DNA from: Beijerinckiaceae bacterium
GTDB taxonomy: Bacteria; Pseudomonadota; Alphaproteobacteria; Rhizobiales; Beijerinckiaceae
NCBI GenBank assembly: GCA_019753285.1
Contig: JAIELD010000025.1
Coordinates: 1-58,753, forward strand
Direction of reading: 5' to 3'
DNA: 58,753 bases
Shown piece by piece: positions 6,456-12,400 of the stretch. Position numbers and translations under genes: made by a program. Numbering within the stretch: the stretch's first letter is position 1; each line of letters begins with the position of its first letter. A model generated the notes under the pieces. That model was not told where the DNA came from, did no database searches, and saw only the letters and a program-made list of their open reading frames with translations.

Positions 6456-7036
6456 TCGGCGCGTGCCGCGCCCGCATGCGACCAGGCGATTCTGATGCCG
6501 GACACCCATCATCGGGTGCAATCCGCGCGCCAAGCCCCTATATGTAGTATGTGAAAAACCGTCACATAACGCCATCTCCGGCTATGGTTAACGGATCGTT
6601 TCACGCTGCCCGCTTAAAGCATTACGTGAGCGAATCGATTAAAATTGAAGGGAATCCGAGGCTTAGTGGATTGTCCACACCAATCCCCAGTTTTAACATG
6701 CCTGCACCAGATATGGTGGGAATTGCTGTCAAGCGCATACTACATCTTGACGATGGGCTGAAACCTGCAGCACTCTTCAAAGGCACGCGAATTTCAGCGG
6801 CACGGTTATCGGGCTTGCAGACACCCCTCGGTGTCGAACGGCCCGGCGGAATGGGAAGCGGCACTGGCCGCAGCCGCTCCTGACCCGCTCGACGGGAACC
6901 ACCGCAGCCAAAATAACAAGCGGCACTGTTATCGCGTCAAGGGGCATCATCCAGCGCTGGCAAGAGCCGAGCGTCAGGCTCGAAGGGAAGGTTTTGCCTT
7001 CTCCGGCATTTGGAAACTGAATTTAGGGAAGACACC
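6456..7036 (+). promoter_or_regulatory. Long leader/intergenic region upstream of nrdJ
   Basis: There are 581 bp without a convincing gene. The only open frame of size (GTG at 6551, 110 codons) has no recognisable protein character. Part of the region (about 6590-6790) is visibly more AT-rich than its surroundings. It contains candidate NrdR-like palindromes (listed separately) and a short inverted repeat GGATTG/CAATCC around 6668-6686. I looked for a cobalamin riboswitch, plausible for a B12-dependent enzyme, and did not find a canonical B12 box. Confidence 0.5.
6704..6752. promoter_or_regulatory. Candidate pair of NrdR-like boxes upstream of nrdJ
   Basis: Two imperfect palindromes resemble the NrdR consensus ACACWATATATWGTGT: 6704-6719 (11 of 16 matches by eye) and 6737-6752 (10 of 16, with core CTACATCTTG fitting CWANATNTWG). 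Their centres are 33 bp apart, close to the three-turn spacing NrdR usually needs. A third, isolated match lies at 6535-6550 (12 of 16). NrdR represses ribonucleotide reductase genes in many bacteria. The match is weak and the distance to the start codon (about 290 bp) is long. Confidence 0.3.
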
Positions 7037-10000
7037 ATGCGGATCGAACGTCGTTTCACCAAGCCCGGCCAGTCAGCTTACGAGGGCATGGAATTCCAGC
7101 TCACCAAATCGGAGATCCGCAACCCCGACGGATCGGTGGTGTTCAGCCTCGAGAATGTCGAGGTGCCCGCCGGCTGGAGCCAGGTCGCGGCCGATGTTCT
7201 GGCGCAGAAGTACTTCCGCAAGGCCGGCGTGCCCGCGCGGCTGAAGCGCGTCGAGGAGAACAGCGTTCCCTCCTTCCTCTGGCGCTCGGTGGCGGACGAA
7301 AAGGCGCTTGCCGCCCTGCCCGCCGAAGAGCGTTATGTCTCGGAAATCTCCTCGAAGCAGGTGTTCGATCGCCTCGCCGGCTGCTGGACCTATTGGGGCT
7401 GGAAGGGCGGCTATTTCACATCTGAAGAGGATGCGCAGGCCTTCTACGACGAGCACCGCTACATGCTCGCGAACCAGATGGTCGCTCCGAATTCGCCGCA
7501 ATGGTTCAATACCGGCCTCCACTGGGCCTATGGCATAGACGGGCCGAGCCAGGGCCATTTCTACGTCGATTTCCAGACCGGCAAGCTCGTCAAATCGAAG
7601 TCATCCTACGAGCACCCGCAGCCGCATGCCTGCTTCATCCAGGGCGTTGCCGACGATCTCGTCAACGAAGGTGGCATCATGGACCTCTGGGTGCGCGAGG
7701 CGCGCCTGTTCAAATACGGCTCCGGCACCGGCTCCAACTTCTCGCTACTGCGCGGCGAGGGCGAACGCCTCGCGGGCGGTGGCCGCTCCTCCGGCCTCAT
7801 GAGCTTCCTGAAAATCGGCGACCGTGCCGCTGGCGCCATCAAGTCGGGCGGCACCACCCGCCGCGCCGCCAAGATGGTGGTGGTCGACGCCGACCATCCG
7901 GACATCGAGGCCTATATCGACTGGAAGGTGAAGGAGGAGCAGAAGGTTGCGGCCCTCGTCACTGGCTCCAAGACGGTAGCCAAACACATGAAGGCGGTGC
8001 TGAAGGCCTGCATCAACTGCGAGGCCGAGGGCGACGCCTGCTTCGAGCCGGAGAAAAACCCGGCCCTGAAGCGCGAGATCAAGCTCGCTCGCCGCGCCAT
8101 GGTGCCGGACAACTACATCAAGCGCGTGATCCAGTTCGCGCGCCAGGGCTACAAGGACATCACCTTCGACATCTACGATACGGATTGGGATTCGGAGGCC
8201 TACCTCACGGTCGCCGGCCAGAACTCCAACAACTCGGTTTCGCTGAAGGATGATTTCCTGCGCGCCGTGGAGGCCGACGCAAACTGGGACCTCATCCGCC
8301 GCACGGACGGGAAGGTCCACAAGAGCCTGAAGGCCCGCGATCTCTGGGAAAAGATCGGCTACGCCGCCTGGGCCTCCGCCGATCCTGGCCTCCACTTCAA
8401 CACCACGATGAACGACTGGCACACCTGCAAGGCGGCCGGCCCGATTCGCGCATCCAATCCGTGCTCGGAATACATGTTCCTCGACGATACGGCCTGCAAC
8501 CTCGCCTCGGCAAACCTGCTGCAGTTCCATGACAAGACGTCGGCCAAGTTCGACGTCGAGGCCTACGAGCATGCCTGCCGGCTCTGGACCGTCGTGCTCG
8601 AAATCTCGGTGATGATGGCGCAGTTTCCTTCCAAGGAAATCGCCGAACTCTCCTACAAGTATCGCACGCTCGGCCTCGGCTTCGCCAATATTGGCGGCCT
8701 CTTGATGACGATGGGCCTCGGCTATGATTCCGATGAAGCCCGTGCCCTCTGCGGCGCTCTCACCGCCATCATGACCGGCACGAGCTACAAGACGTCTGCC
8801 GAGATGGCCGGCGAACTCGGCCCCTTCCCCGGCTACAAGGACAATGCGCAGCATATGCTGCGCGTCATCCGCAACCACACCCGCGCCGCGCGTGGCGAGG
8901 CCGCCGGATATGAGGGGCTGGCGGTGAACCCGCTGCCGCTCGACCACACGTCCTGCCCCGATCCGCTGCTCGTCAAGCGCGCGGTGCATGCTTGGGAGAG
9001 CGCGCTGGCGCTTGGTGAAAAGAACGGCTTCCGCAACGCGCAGGCGACCGTGATTGCGCCGACCGGCACGATCGGCCTCGTGATGGATTGTGACACCACC
9101 GGCATCGAGCCAGACTTTGCGCTGGTGAAGTTCAAGAAGCTCGCCGGCGGCGGCTATTTCAAGATCATCAACCGCGCTGTGCCGGATGCGCTGCGCTCGC
9201 TCGGCTACAGCGAGGCCGAGATCGCCGAAATGGAGGCTTTCGCCGTCGGCCACGCCTCGCTCGGCCAGGCACCCGGCATCAACCACTCGACGCTGAAGGC
9301 CAAGGGCTTTACGGACGCGGCGCTCGCCAAGCTGGAAAAGTCGCTCGCTTCCGCCTTCGACATCAAGTTCGTGTTCAACAAATGGACGCTCGGCGAGGAA
9401 CTGCTCACCGGCCAGCTCGGCGTGCCGGCAGAGAAGCTCAACGATCCGAGCTTCGAACTTCTGCCCCATCTCGGCTTCTCGAAGGCCGATATCGAGGCCG
9501 CAAACATCCATGTCTGCGGGGCGATGACGCTGGAGGGCGCGCCGCACCTCAAACGCGAGCACTACCACGTCTTTGATTGCGCAAACCCGTGCGGGCGCAC
9601 CGGCAAGCGCTATCTCTCGGTCGAGAGCCACATCCGCATGATGGCGGCGGCGCAGCCCTTCATCTCGGGCGCGATCTCGAAGACGATCAACATGCCGAAC
9701 GAGGCGACGGTCGAGGATTGCAAGAACGCCTATCTCCTCTCCTGGAAGCTGGCGCTGAAAGCCAACGCGCTCTATCGCGACGGCTCCAAGCTCTCGCAGC
9801 CCTTGAACTCCGCGCTCATCCAGGATGATGACGAGGAGGAGGATCAGGTCGAGGCGCTGATGGCGATGCCAGCGGCCGCAAAAGCCAGCGCCACGGCGGA
9901 GCGGATCGTCGAGCGCATCATCGAGCGGGTGGAGCGCCTGCGCGACCGCGAGAAGCTGCCCAACCGGCGCAAGGGCTACACACAAAAGGCCGTGGTCGGC

Positions 10001-10804
10001 GGACACAAGGTTTATCTGCGCACCGGCGAATATGATGATGGCCGCATCGGCGAAATCTTCATCGACATGCACAAGGAGGGCGCTGCCTTCCGCTCGCTGA
10101 TGAACAACTTCGCCATCGCGATCTCGCTCGGCCTGCAATATGGCGTGCCGCTGGAGGAGTATGTCGACGCCTTCACCTTCACGCGCTTCGAACCGGCCGG
10201 CTTCGTGCAGGGCAATGACGCGATCAAGAACGCAACCTCGATCCTCGACTACGTGTTCCGCGAACTCGCGATCTCGTATCTCGATCGCTACGACCTCGCC
10301 CATGTCTCGCCGAGCGACATCGGCAGCACGGTGCTGGGCGGCGGCGAGAACGAGGGCCGGGACGGCGGACGCGACGGCGGCAAGGATGGCGGCAAGGACC
10401 AGCCGCGCAGCACGCAGGGCGGCGCGAACCAGATCGTCTCCAAGGGCCTTGTACGCGGCAAGCCGACCGGGCTGATGGCGATACCGGGTGGCGGGCGTGC
10501 GATGGATACGAAGGCGCAAGGCGCGGTGCTGGCCTTTACGAGCCACGGCGCGACGGCCTTGAAGAGCCAGCCTGACGAAGCGTTCGAAGAGGACGAGGCG
10601 GACGCAGAAAAAGGTGCAGAAATAGAACTCGGATATTCCGGGTCAGATGCTTGGAAGCAAAGGAACTTGGCGTCACGTAGAGCTGAAGCTCAAATGAAGG
10701 GTTATGTTGGTGAGAGTTGCCCAGAATGTGCAAACTTCACATTGGTAAGAAATGGAACGTGCCTCAAATGTGATACGTGCGGCTCAACTACCGGATGTAG
10801 CTAA
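7037..10804 (+). CDS. nrdJ: Adenosylcobalamin-dependent (class II) ribonucleoside-diphosphate reductase
   Basis: 1255 residues from ATG 7037 ([12 protein letters not shown]). It reduces ribonucleotides to deoxyribonucleotides using a B12-derived radical. Landmarks include the Cys-containing [19 protein letters not shown] segment, the [19 protein letters not shown] loop and the C-terminal Cys-rich tail (residues 1225-1255, CPEC, CLKCDTC, TTGCS) that passes electrons to the active site. A Gly/Asp/Lys linker built of short repeats ([15 protein letters not shown]) sits near residues 1110-1122. From about 10606 the codon use switches abruptly to AT-rich, although the protein stays NrdJ-like, so the last ~65 codons appear to be of foreign origin (see findings). 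The stop is followed after 11 nt by the protease gene. Confidence 0.96.
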
Positions 10805-11382
10805 GGGAGGGGTGCATGATCCGCGATTATTATGCACCTCTTATAGCTGAAAGCCGCATCGCCGCGATTGCTGACAAATGGCGAGAGGAAGGTCGGATAC
10901 AAAGTTGTTTGACCTTCAACATCGTCGATTTTTTTGTCCATACATTGATGAGGCGATTTGATCCAAGGAAAGGTATAGTTCATTTGCGTTTGGCTGATGA
11001 TCTATATGAGAAGAATCCGGCATTTGTATCTTATAATCCACCTAAGCTTAGTATTCATAAGGAAATCTGGTCTGACGCTGCACTTGGCGATCCAAATGCC
11101 CGAGAAATTGTTGCTCATGAAATTGGTCATCTTATTTTGCATGATCAACACGTTTTCAGCTTTCAAAAAGCGTCAGATCCAAAACTCAAGTTTCGTCAGC
11201 ATGAGCTAGAATCGATCGAAGTACAGGCAATTACTTTTGCGGATAATTTTTTGGTCCCGTTAAAGTTCGTGTTTGCCTGTCGTTCTGCTGCTGACTTGAG
11301 CCGACAATGCGAGGTACCTCTCGAAATGGCGTTACGACGGCTTCGACACCTAAAAAATAGGTCCAGTTTCTTTGAGTACTGC
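10606..11382 (+). mobile_element. Putative tail-replacing element: recoded nrdJ 3' end plus ImmA/IrrE-type protease gene
   Basis: The segment is sharply AT-richer than its flanks: for 10921-11040 I count 44 G+C in 120, whereas neighbouring coding DNA is obviously GC-rich. It comprises the last ~200 nt of the present nrdJ reading frame and the protease gene up to the junction with a second, GC-rich nrdJ tail at about 11377-11383. The left edge is placed where codon use changes (about 10600-10611), the right edge where homology to the NrdJ tail begins. No terminal repeats, integrase, transposase or nuclease gene is seen. By analogy to prophages that restore the 3' end of the gene they enter, I infer horizontal acquisition with target-gene rescue. 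Confidence 0.7.
10709..10804 (+). repeat. NrdJ Cys-tail copy A (recoded, at the end of nrdJ)
   Basis: Codons for 31 residues from GESCPEC to TTGCS plus stop TAA. Compared by hand with copy B (11383-11478), 70 of 96 bases match. Nine sense codons are identical, 21 differ synonymously and one changes Asn to Ser. Copy A prefers A/T at third positions (GGT, AGT, CCA, GCA, ACA, GTA, AGA), unlike the rest of nrdJ. Such divergence rules out a recent tandem duplication. Confidence 0.93.
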
Positions 11383-11478
11383 GGCGAAAGCTGCCCGGAA
11401 TGTGCGAACTTCACGCTGGTCAGGAGCGGTACCTGCCTGAAGTGCGACACGTGCGGATCGACGACGGGGTGTTCGTGA
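10816..11478 (+). CDS. ImmA/IrrE-type zinc metallopeptidase fused in frame to the NrdJ C-terminal Cys tail
   Basis: 220 residues. The strong site GGGAGG at 10805-10810, just after the nrdJ stop, fixes the start and couples it to nrdJ. Residues 1-181 are an ImmA/IrrE (DUF955, gluzincin-like) domain: zinc motif H101-E-I-G-H105, third ligand E135 in the family pattern ExxAITFADNFLVP, and a C-terminal helix MALRRLRHL. Known relatives cleave repressors (ImmR, DdrO) to switch on element transfer or DNA-damage genes. There is no N-terminal HTH. Residues 190-220 are not part of that family: they repeat the NrdJ tail (CPEC, CLKCDTC, TTGCS) with 30 of 31 identities. Residues 1-187 are AT-rich in DNA, the tail GC-rich. 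Whether the fusion is functional or an accident of insertion is open. Confidence 0.85.
   Translation: MIRDYYAPLIAESRIAAIADKWREEGRIQSCLTFNIVDFFVHTLMRRFDPRKGIVHLRLADDLYEKNPAFVSYNPPKLSIHKEIWSDAALGDPNAREIVAHEIGHLILHDQHVFSFQKASDPKLKFRQHELESIEVQAITFADNFLVPLKFVFACRSAADLSRQCEVPLEMALRRLRHLKNRSSFFEYCGESCPECANFTLVRSGTCLKCDTCGSTTGCS
11383..11478 (+). repeat. NrdJ Cys-tail copy B (host-like codons, displaced to the end of the protease gene)
   Basis: Encodes the same 31-residue tail with GC-rich, host-like codons (CTG, GTC, AAG, TGC, GAC, TCG, ACG) and stop TGA. Homology with copy A may extend one or two codons further left (Tyr at 11377-11379). It is best read as the original 3' end of the resident nrdJ, now separated from its gene by the inserted segment. 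The frame is unbroken from the protease through the tail to the native stop. Confidence 0.88.
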
Positions 11479-11870: not shown

Positions 11871-11996
11871 TACCCGCCTCGTTTGTCTCGACACCCCCCT
11901 CTACGGGGAGGAAAGATCGAGTTTCTTCTCGCGAAGTTCGGGATCGGTCATCCCTCCCATTCAGGGGAGGGTGGCCCGCAGGGCCGGGTGGGGCGT
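11871..11996. repeat. Bipartite REP-like palindromic repeat, copy 1 (3' flank of DUF559 gene)
   Basis: Two blocks: ACCCGCCTCG followed by a CCCCCCTCTACGGGGAGG hairpin, then after a spacer CATCCCTCCCATTCAG-GGGAGGGTG and GGCCCGCAGGGCC. The same block order is found in direct orientation at 12401-12484. The second block encodes the last codons and stop of the DUF559 gene. Confidence 0.75.
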
Positions 11997-12349
11997 TGGG
12001 CGAACAGCTCTTGGCGGGTGAGGCAGTGATGCAGGATCGTCTCGACGACGCCGGCAAGATTGGTCCTGATGTCCTCGTTCCAGAAGCGCAGCGTCAGAAA
12101 TCCAAGATCGGCAAGTCGCGTGTCACGCGCGGCATCATGCCTGAGCCCGCGTTCAAAACCATGTTGGCTGCCATCCACCTCGATGACGAGCTTCGCCTTA
12201 AGGCACAGAAAATCGACGATGTAACGATCGAGCGGGGCTTGCCGTCGGATATGAAAGCCTTGCGCCTTGAGCGCGCGCAACTGCACCCATAGACGCACCT
12301 CATGCGGGGTCATCGTCTTGCGCAGGCGGCGGGCAACGGCGTTGGCCAT
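11948..12349 (-). CDS. DUF559 (Vsr-like PD-(D/E)XK) endonuclease-domain protein
   Basis: 133 residues from the M at 12349 (MANAVARRLRKTMTPHEVRLW). A start at 12400 would add 17 residues that fall in repeat DNA. The DUF559 core is clear: TPHEVRLWVQLR, GFHIRRQAPLDRYIVDFLCLKAKLVIEVDGSQH, RLADLGFLTLRFWNEDI, with putative catalytic D (in YIVDF), E-V-D and Q-H residues of the very-short-patch-repair-like nuclease fold. The role is unknown. The C-terminal RPCGPPSPEWEG is encoded by the flanking palindromic repeat. The gene body lies between two direct copies of that repeat, about 510 bp apart, which suggests a repeat-associated unit. Confidence 0.85.
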   Translation of the reverse strand: MANAVARRLRKTMTPHEVRLWVQLRALKAQGFHIRRQAPLDRYIVDFLCLKAKLVIEVDGSQHGFERGLRHDAARDTRLADLGFLTLRFWNEDIRTNLAGVVETILHHCLTRQELFAQRPTRPCGPPSPEWEG

Positions 12350-12400
12350 GCGAAAGGCTGGCATACCCTGCCGAGGCTGAAAAGCGCCAGCAAATGGCAT

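Follow-up and report, generated by a model that had tools for sequence, protein, structure and literature searches.

Why should the codon usage of a ribonucleotide reductase gene change shortly before its stop codon, and why should the protease gene behind it end like the reductase? Both features occur in the window, by which we mean the whole analysed stretch of 58 753 nucleotides from a Beijerinckiaceae bacterium. The nrdJ gene for the class II (B12-dependent) ribonucleotide reductase occupies positions 7010–10804 of the forward strand, as do all other window features unless stated otherwise, with ATG 7037 as the probable start. Its product is a full-length class II reductase (NCBIfam profile NF005736, 2317 bits). 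GC3 is 0.72–0.92 per 150-base step along nrdJ and drops to 0.34 in the last step. The flip in codon use that a preliminary description had noticed near the gene end was confirmed by a codon-usage change-point scan and placed at 10604, 66 codons ahead of the stop codon. These last 66 codons have a log-odds of +47.2, against −24.7 or less for any other 66-codon stretch of nrdJ and −27.3 at best in a downstream gene.

The resident nrdJ body (7010–10603), which shows resident codon use and underlies the profile match, includes the conserved GATALK codons, read from the sequence at 10547–10564. It is followed by an AT-rich, recoded 3' end including the stop codon (tail A, 10604–10804), which completes NrdJ. 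A spacer of 11 bases with a Shine–Dalgarno-like GGGAGGGG (10805–10812, noticed by eye and presumably functional) separates the stop codon from the gene for an M78 metalloprotease of 220 residues (10816–11478), whose HEIGH motif lies at 11116–11130. The last 34 protease codons (11374–11475) return to resident usage, and residues 178–220 are matched by the C-terminal end of the NrdJ profile NF005736 (E = 2e-14). This segment, copy B (11374–11478), is the displaced resident nrdJ tail. The order of an AT-rich protease followed by a GC-rich native tail had been recognized before, but the tail is not a separate piece: it is the in-frame end of the protease. The original size of about 0.78 kb for the foreign unit was close and is refined here to about 770 bases (10604–11373). 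Tail A and copy B are identical at 72 of 102 bases (30 differ), sharing short identical runs only, and their products differ at two of 33 residues (V/C, N/S). As described previously, neither an integrase nor a transposase or nuclease could be seen in the unit, whose single gene is that of the M78 protease. Rfam at gathering scores gave no match in positions 1–58 753 and hence no cobalamin riboswitch ahead of nrdJ. An ORF on the reverse strand (11948–12400), presumably for a DUF559-type protein, separates the cassette from the next metabolic gene.

The earlier proposal that a foreign 3' end restores NrdJ while the native end is displaced held up not only in the codon scan but also in comparison with relatives. 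In the genus of genome G112 (g18), 36 of 39 genomes gave a match. Besides G112 itself, 33 of 35 genomes align their own nrdJ tail to the copy behind the G112 protease; the two exceptions are G284, another occupied genome, and G187, which gave the weakest match and aligns its tail to tail A. Compared with the sister genome G270, the downstream copy of G112 is 95.7% identical over 116 bases and its tail A 77.3% over 119 bases. In this genus, the native tail is therefore the copy behind the protease, and the tail attached to nrdJ is foreign. Third-position identity to native tails was determined for eight occupied loci with a resident copy, using the genus (five loci) or the family (three loci) as native reference. 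All eight agree, with values of 0.30–0.47 for tail A and 0.53–0.76 for the downstream copy; those of the window, relative to family native tails, are 0.33 for tail A and 0.58 for copy B. The native sets comprised loci with exactly one matched tail each (23 of 30 in genus g9, 28 of 30 in g18, 27 of 29 in the family), with L069, L081 and L086 removed by hand and G284 retained in the g18 set. The downstream copies of G421 and G447 reach up to 98.8% identity with the tail of a sister, and, as in the window, the resident copy of G421 forms the in-frame protease end.

Uninterrupted sites, which had been expected among close relatives, are present in relatives of other occupied genomes. The sole same-genus relative of the window, G001 (GC3 of 0.33–0.63), is equidistant, its tail matching one window copy at 72 of 99 bases and the other at 71 of 99. 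An arrangement common to all relatives, with concordant phylogeny, had been named beforehand as one result that would speak against a foreign unit; the arrangement is not universal.

A measure that needs no sister tails is the GC3 of the last 40 nrdJ codons minus that of the body. It averages −0.046 (SD 0.066) in 75 loci without an M78 gene; these are the loci that gave a value among the 77 remaining after nine, occupied or with another M78 gene, had been removed by name. Values below the mean minus 2 SD were obtained for 14 of 19 loci with an NrdJ-tailed protease, for one of the 75 empty loci (G343) and for none of six loci with other M78 types (Fisher's exact test for 14/19 versus 1/75, 9e-12, uncorrected for kinship). 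L200 was excluded from this comparison, and L048 and L212 gave no value. The five NrdJ-tailed loci without a clear drop are those of G072, G284, G197, G180 and G253.

The exceptional empty locus G343 (L069) is the best match to G009 in the g9 DNA search, with 89% identity over body and tail. Its nrdJ carries a G009-type foreign tail (at about 2700–2960), whereas both the protease and a second tail are absent, and the flank past nrdJ reads like that behind the native copy of G009. The simplest reading of this apparent scar is that the protease and the native tail were lost and the foreign end was kept. The claim that such an element would be hard to lose therefore does not stand as worded: with the protease missing from G343 and the foreign tail still in place, lock-in may apply to the tail but does not extend to the protease. 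G401 and G445 have comparable tail types and likewise no protease, but GC3 there does not fall below the limit.

Trees of the separate parts disagree. In the nrdJ body tree, G151 joins G197 of the same genus (98/96) and G009 joins G333 (100/98). In the protease tree, G151 groups with the two proteases of g18 (100/100), G151 plus G197 being rejected (p-AU 1.2e-5), and G333 groups with G447 (99/94), apart from G009. The two g33 proteases form one clade; a single clade was not rejected for the six g9 proteases (p 0.066) or for the two g18 proteases (p 0.18). The tail DNA tree, for which 28 of 38 rows were used, rejects G151 plus G197 (p 2.6e-4) and the G112 genus as one clade (p 0.0065), both of which are supported by the body of the same 28 genomes (97/87 and 92/91). 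The tail A sequences of G151, G112 and G284 form a group that crosses genera and stands apart from resident tails, and clustering of the recoded segment with resident tails, which had been considered as contrary evidence, was not found in the genera where a comparison was possible. The conflict with the body tree indicates that tail A and protease of these cassettes move as a pair, separately from the nrdJ body.

The unit in the window is one member of a family of nrdJ–protease cassettes, and the same layout is found at nrdJ in other genera. When 397 genomes were searched at the family level with the window protease, 16 of the matches listed covered the protease body and 14 of these 16 lie within 0.5 kb behind nrdJ; G123 has no nrdJ in its flank, and G409 was left out. 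A DNA search in genus g9 (59 genomes, 30 loci inspected) added G421, G443 and G447. At the order level, the protease domain without its tail was used as query against 397 genomes: 28 gave an M78 match with an E of at most 1e-8. Twelve of them have nrdJ in the flank, to which G572, with nrdJ near the opposite end of its single contig, can be added as a thirteenth. By reading, the protease tail is NrdJ-like in five of the 12 loci, the other seven having other M78 types. A class sample of 337 genomes gave, beyond G000 and G009, weak M78 matches only (best 7e-14), and nrdJ was in the flank of none of the 14 new M78 loci. A contig search with the window protease alone found no relative; with three close proteases it returned two loci from Hyphomicrobiales, Methylosinus sp. 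Ce-a6 and Methylocystis sp. KS32, the same matches as G151 and G284 respectively. Among 90 nrdJ loci examined by motif, eight (from seven genomes) have a second NrdJ-like tail, every one of them with an M78 gene, and five more have an M78 gene but no second tail; in this set L018 and L110 gave no tail, and several loci have less than 500 bases downstream.

A phage or plasmid origin was considered and rejected. None of 65 listed M78 loci on viral contigs has an NrdJ-like tail by motif, the sole find in the phage collection was the tail of a phage class II reductase, and the plasmid collection yielded one M78 protein of 27.8% identity.

M78 genes of other types, without an NrdJ-like tail, also occur behind nrdJ (L203, L208, L209, L211 and L222, as well as L020, L030, L085 and L119), and the nrdJ end of such loci is not recoded where it was measured. 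This suggests that the downstream side of nrdJ attracts M78 genes more widely than the cassette family alone. A leftover NrdJ tail follows different M78 genes in L204 (G787, 1459–2410) and L200 (G572, 346–1266); in G787 the GC3 drop at the nrdJ end is absent. L195 (G756) has two consecutive M78 genes behind nrdJ with one ORF between them, presumably for an XRE-type regulator. The G756 protease is the same as that of a record labelled 'Frankia sp. RB7' (P0016), a label which is doubtful because G756 is placed in the order of the window.

The window protease belongs to Pfam Peptidase_M78 (PF06114, 32.1 bits against a cut-off of 22), the ImmA/IrrE/PprI type. It has the HExxH motif and distal glutamate of M78 enzymes: H101, E102 and E135 are present in all 44 aligned sequences and H105 in 43. 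The four cysteines of the C-terminal ribbon are held in 44, 44, 43 and 43 of the 44, in an alignment drawn from searches with a tail-bearing query, which favours NrdJ-tailed proteins. Of nine proteases compared with NCBIfam, six reach an E of 5e-4 or lower against the C-terminal NrdJ model (window 2e-14, G284 1e-9, G118 3e-9, G112 3e-5, G197 2e-4, G393 4e-4); G072 reaches 0.02, and the ribbons of G009 and G333 have no match to this model. Among the proteins run, Pfam and NCBIfam returned M78 and the NrdJ tail, with no match to an endonuclease in the ORF. The predicted structure (mean pLDDT 87.6) has as its fold neighbours PprI with ssDNA, PprI and CapP, all at modest scores (E 1.4e-3 to 3.6e-3, TM 0.45–0.46), and the best PADLOC match is capP (E = 4e-8). 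According to one account, PprI and likewise CapP are activated by ssDNA; PprI cuts the repressor DdrO and CapP cuts CapH (PMC10904395).

Sixteen of 17 genomes examined, including that of the window (82% complete), lack a class I small subunit; NrdJ is therefore likely to be the sole aerobic reductase in these 16. The exception is G118; G151 and G197 each show a further reductase-like match, at 30% identity. The tail of NrdJ is the reductant-facing end of the enzyme. Fold, position and the tail copy lead us to predict that the protease acts on NrdJ or close to it, the ribbon bringing an ssDNA-switched protease to NrdJ or to the reductant that serves the NrdJ tail. This function is the least certain step of our proposal, and we regard it as rather unlikely in this specific form. 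Perhaps a protein of 67 residues with a GLDxRHRD motif is a partner or substrate: its gene stands behind a protease in G112 and G151 (L045, 2049–2252, and L039, 2162–2365) and in G756 (L195, minus strand), and the proteins of G112 and G151 gave no Pfam hit over the cut-off and no NCBIfam match.

The foreign NrdJ tail, the native tail behind or fused to the protease, the empty sister sites, the tree conflict and the scar are probably explained by a cassette of about 0.8–1.2 kb, consisting of recoded foreign nrdJ end, M78 gene and displaced resident tail, that moves by homologous recombination between nrdJ genes of Hyphomicrobiales. Movement would require no enzyme of its own, as NrdJ sequence on both flanks would serve instead: the nrdJ body as the left arm and the second copy of the NrdJ tail, in the protease ribbon or as a leftover, as the right arm. 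A crossover inside the ribbon would yield the in-frame fusion seen in the window, where the last 34 protease codons would be the tail of the recipient. With an NrdJ end supplied by the cassette itself, the enzyme should remain complete, and loss of this end alone would break what is likely the only aerobic ribonucleotide reductase. Several observations count against this explanation: the five of 19 NrdJ-tailed loci without a clear GC3 drop; the failure of G001 to tell the two copies apart, as regards the window; the protease tree, in which a single clade was not rejected for g9 or for g18; the M78 genes behind nrdJ that lack an NrdJ-like end; and the G009 and G333 ribbons without a match to the NrdJ model, together with the modest fold scores (TM 0.45, best E 1.4e-3).

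The cassette ends bear on the means of transfer. Judged by 90-base windows and reading of the linker, resident sequence extends up to about GATALK in G151, G009 and G421, and the alignment of G112 to its sisters stops about 15 codons ahead of GATALK. Left junctions so close to GATALK in four genomes speak against free recombination over the conserved body, which should scatter them, and keep alive a preferred break or an enzyme provided in trans. Such an enzyme, a nuclease or recombinase encoded elsewhere, might act just past GATALK and carry the cassette as a non-autonomous passenger, as in the C-terminus replacements of fungal mitochondria, which are driven by an endonuclease (PMC3630166). 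The persistence of most of the native linker behind the protease in G009 and G118 would fit such an enzyme, but other cassettes retain about 31–46 codons of tail, right ends vary from genome to genome, and no direct or inverted 9-mer is common to both ends of the five cassettes analysed, all from relatives of the window; we consider this alternative doubtful. By the same 9-mers, these five cassettes have neither the terminal inverted repeats nor the target duplication of insertion sequences or transposons. Two similar tails side by side, in a genome assembled in 86 contigs, could also suggest that the nrdJ tail was duplicated locally in tandem or that the assembly is wrong. This is contradicted by the grouping of tail A from G151, G112 and G284 across genera, off the resident tails, and by recurrence of the layout in genomes of three (G009, G112) and seven contigs (G443), and is hardly credible.

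A different view is that nrdJ and the protease form a useful operon that is not selfish, the swapped tail being a side effect of allelic replacement. The conserved catalytic and ribbon residues, the divergence of the protease bodies (dN 0.22–0.61 in five pairs, dS saturated in all) and the presence of other M78 types behind nrdJ agree with this. However, occurrence is patchy (among the matches listed for the 397 genomes, 14 of 16 body matches at nrdJ), and G343 kept the tail but not the protease; we regard an operon as possible, though not as the expected answer. Finally, the cassette could act as poison and antidote, if the protease cut NrdJ with a resident-type linker, spared the cassette linker and thus made loss of the cassette end harmful to the cell. 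Cassette and native NrdJ linkers do differ in residues and not in codons alone, and the scar retains the foreign end. The requirement for a complete NrdJ end predicts such a scar equally well, however, and five NrdJ-tailed loci lack a clear foreign end, which makes such a system very unlikely.

Returning to a cassette that moves by homologous recombination, we tentatively suggest, as a possibility that is open to considerable doubt, a homing unit without nuclease, in which the NrdJ tail would serve twice, as the homology arm for entry into a further nrdJ gene and as a docking domain directing the protease to NrdJ or its reductant. ssDNA would switch the protease on, as for PprI and CapP, and DNA damage or phage attack would then alter the nucleotide supply via the ribbon-guided protease. 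If this is true, a protease gene spreads by owning the C-terminus of the only aerobic ribonucleotide reductase of the cell, and PprI/CapP-type proteases are linked to deoxynucleotide supply by a copied reductase tail, which could be tested in vitro. Movement of so small a unit without an enzyme would likewise be directly testable. Such units are easily overlooked, as NrdJ appears intact and the protease resembles a stray ImmA/IrrE gene.

Among target-restoring elements, e14 in icd displaces the 3' end of its host gene and replaces it by its own. Prophages and islands of this type carry an integrase gene and are bounded by an identical core on either side. The nrdJ unit resembles them in that the gene is completed by a foreign 3' end, with the native one displaced downstream. 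It differs in comprising one or two genes, with neither an integrase nor an identical core repeat seen. With PprI/IrrE and CapP the protease shares an M78-type domain with HEXXH and its best fold and PADLOC matches; unlike them, it follows nrdJ and ends in an NrdJ-like ribbon. Reading of the surrounding ORF list showed no obvious repressor-like gene next to it.

No description of a link between nrdJ and M78 proteases was seen in the open-access literature searched, and to this extent the earlier statement that no such element was known to its author holds, but the layout is shared, together with an endonuclease, by mobile ORFs of fungal mitochondria (PMC3630166). These are the closest precedent by analogy. 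Such ORFs replace the C-terminus of atp6 in Allomyces and of atp6, atp9, cox2 and nad3 in Glomus, and encode a site-specific endonuclease that drives insertion (PMC3630166). There, as at nrdJ, a foreign C-terminus completes the gene, the ORF comes next and the displaced native C-terminus stands behind it; the two ends differ mostly in DNA, and trees of core and end disagree. The hallmarks of the fungal type, conflicting C-terminus trees and relatives without the ORF, were found in relatives outside the genus of the window. Unlike the fungal ORFs, the nrdJ cassette encodes a metalloprotease with a copy of the target tail and no homing endonuclease match, and it resides in a ribonucleotide reductase gene of a bacterial chromosome with no visible enzyme for movement. 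It would thus bring mobile genes that replace a C-terminus, known from fungal mitochondria, onto bacterial chromosomes, the endonuclease being replaced by a protease.
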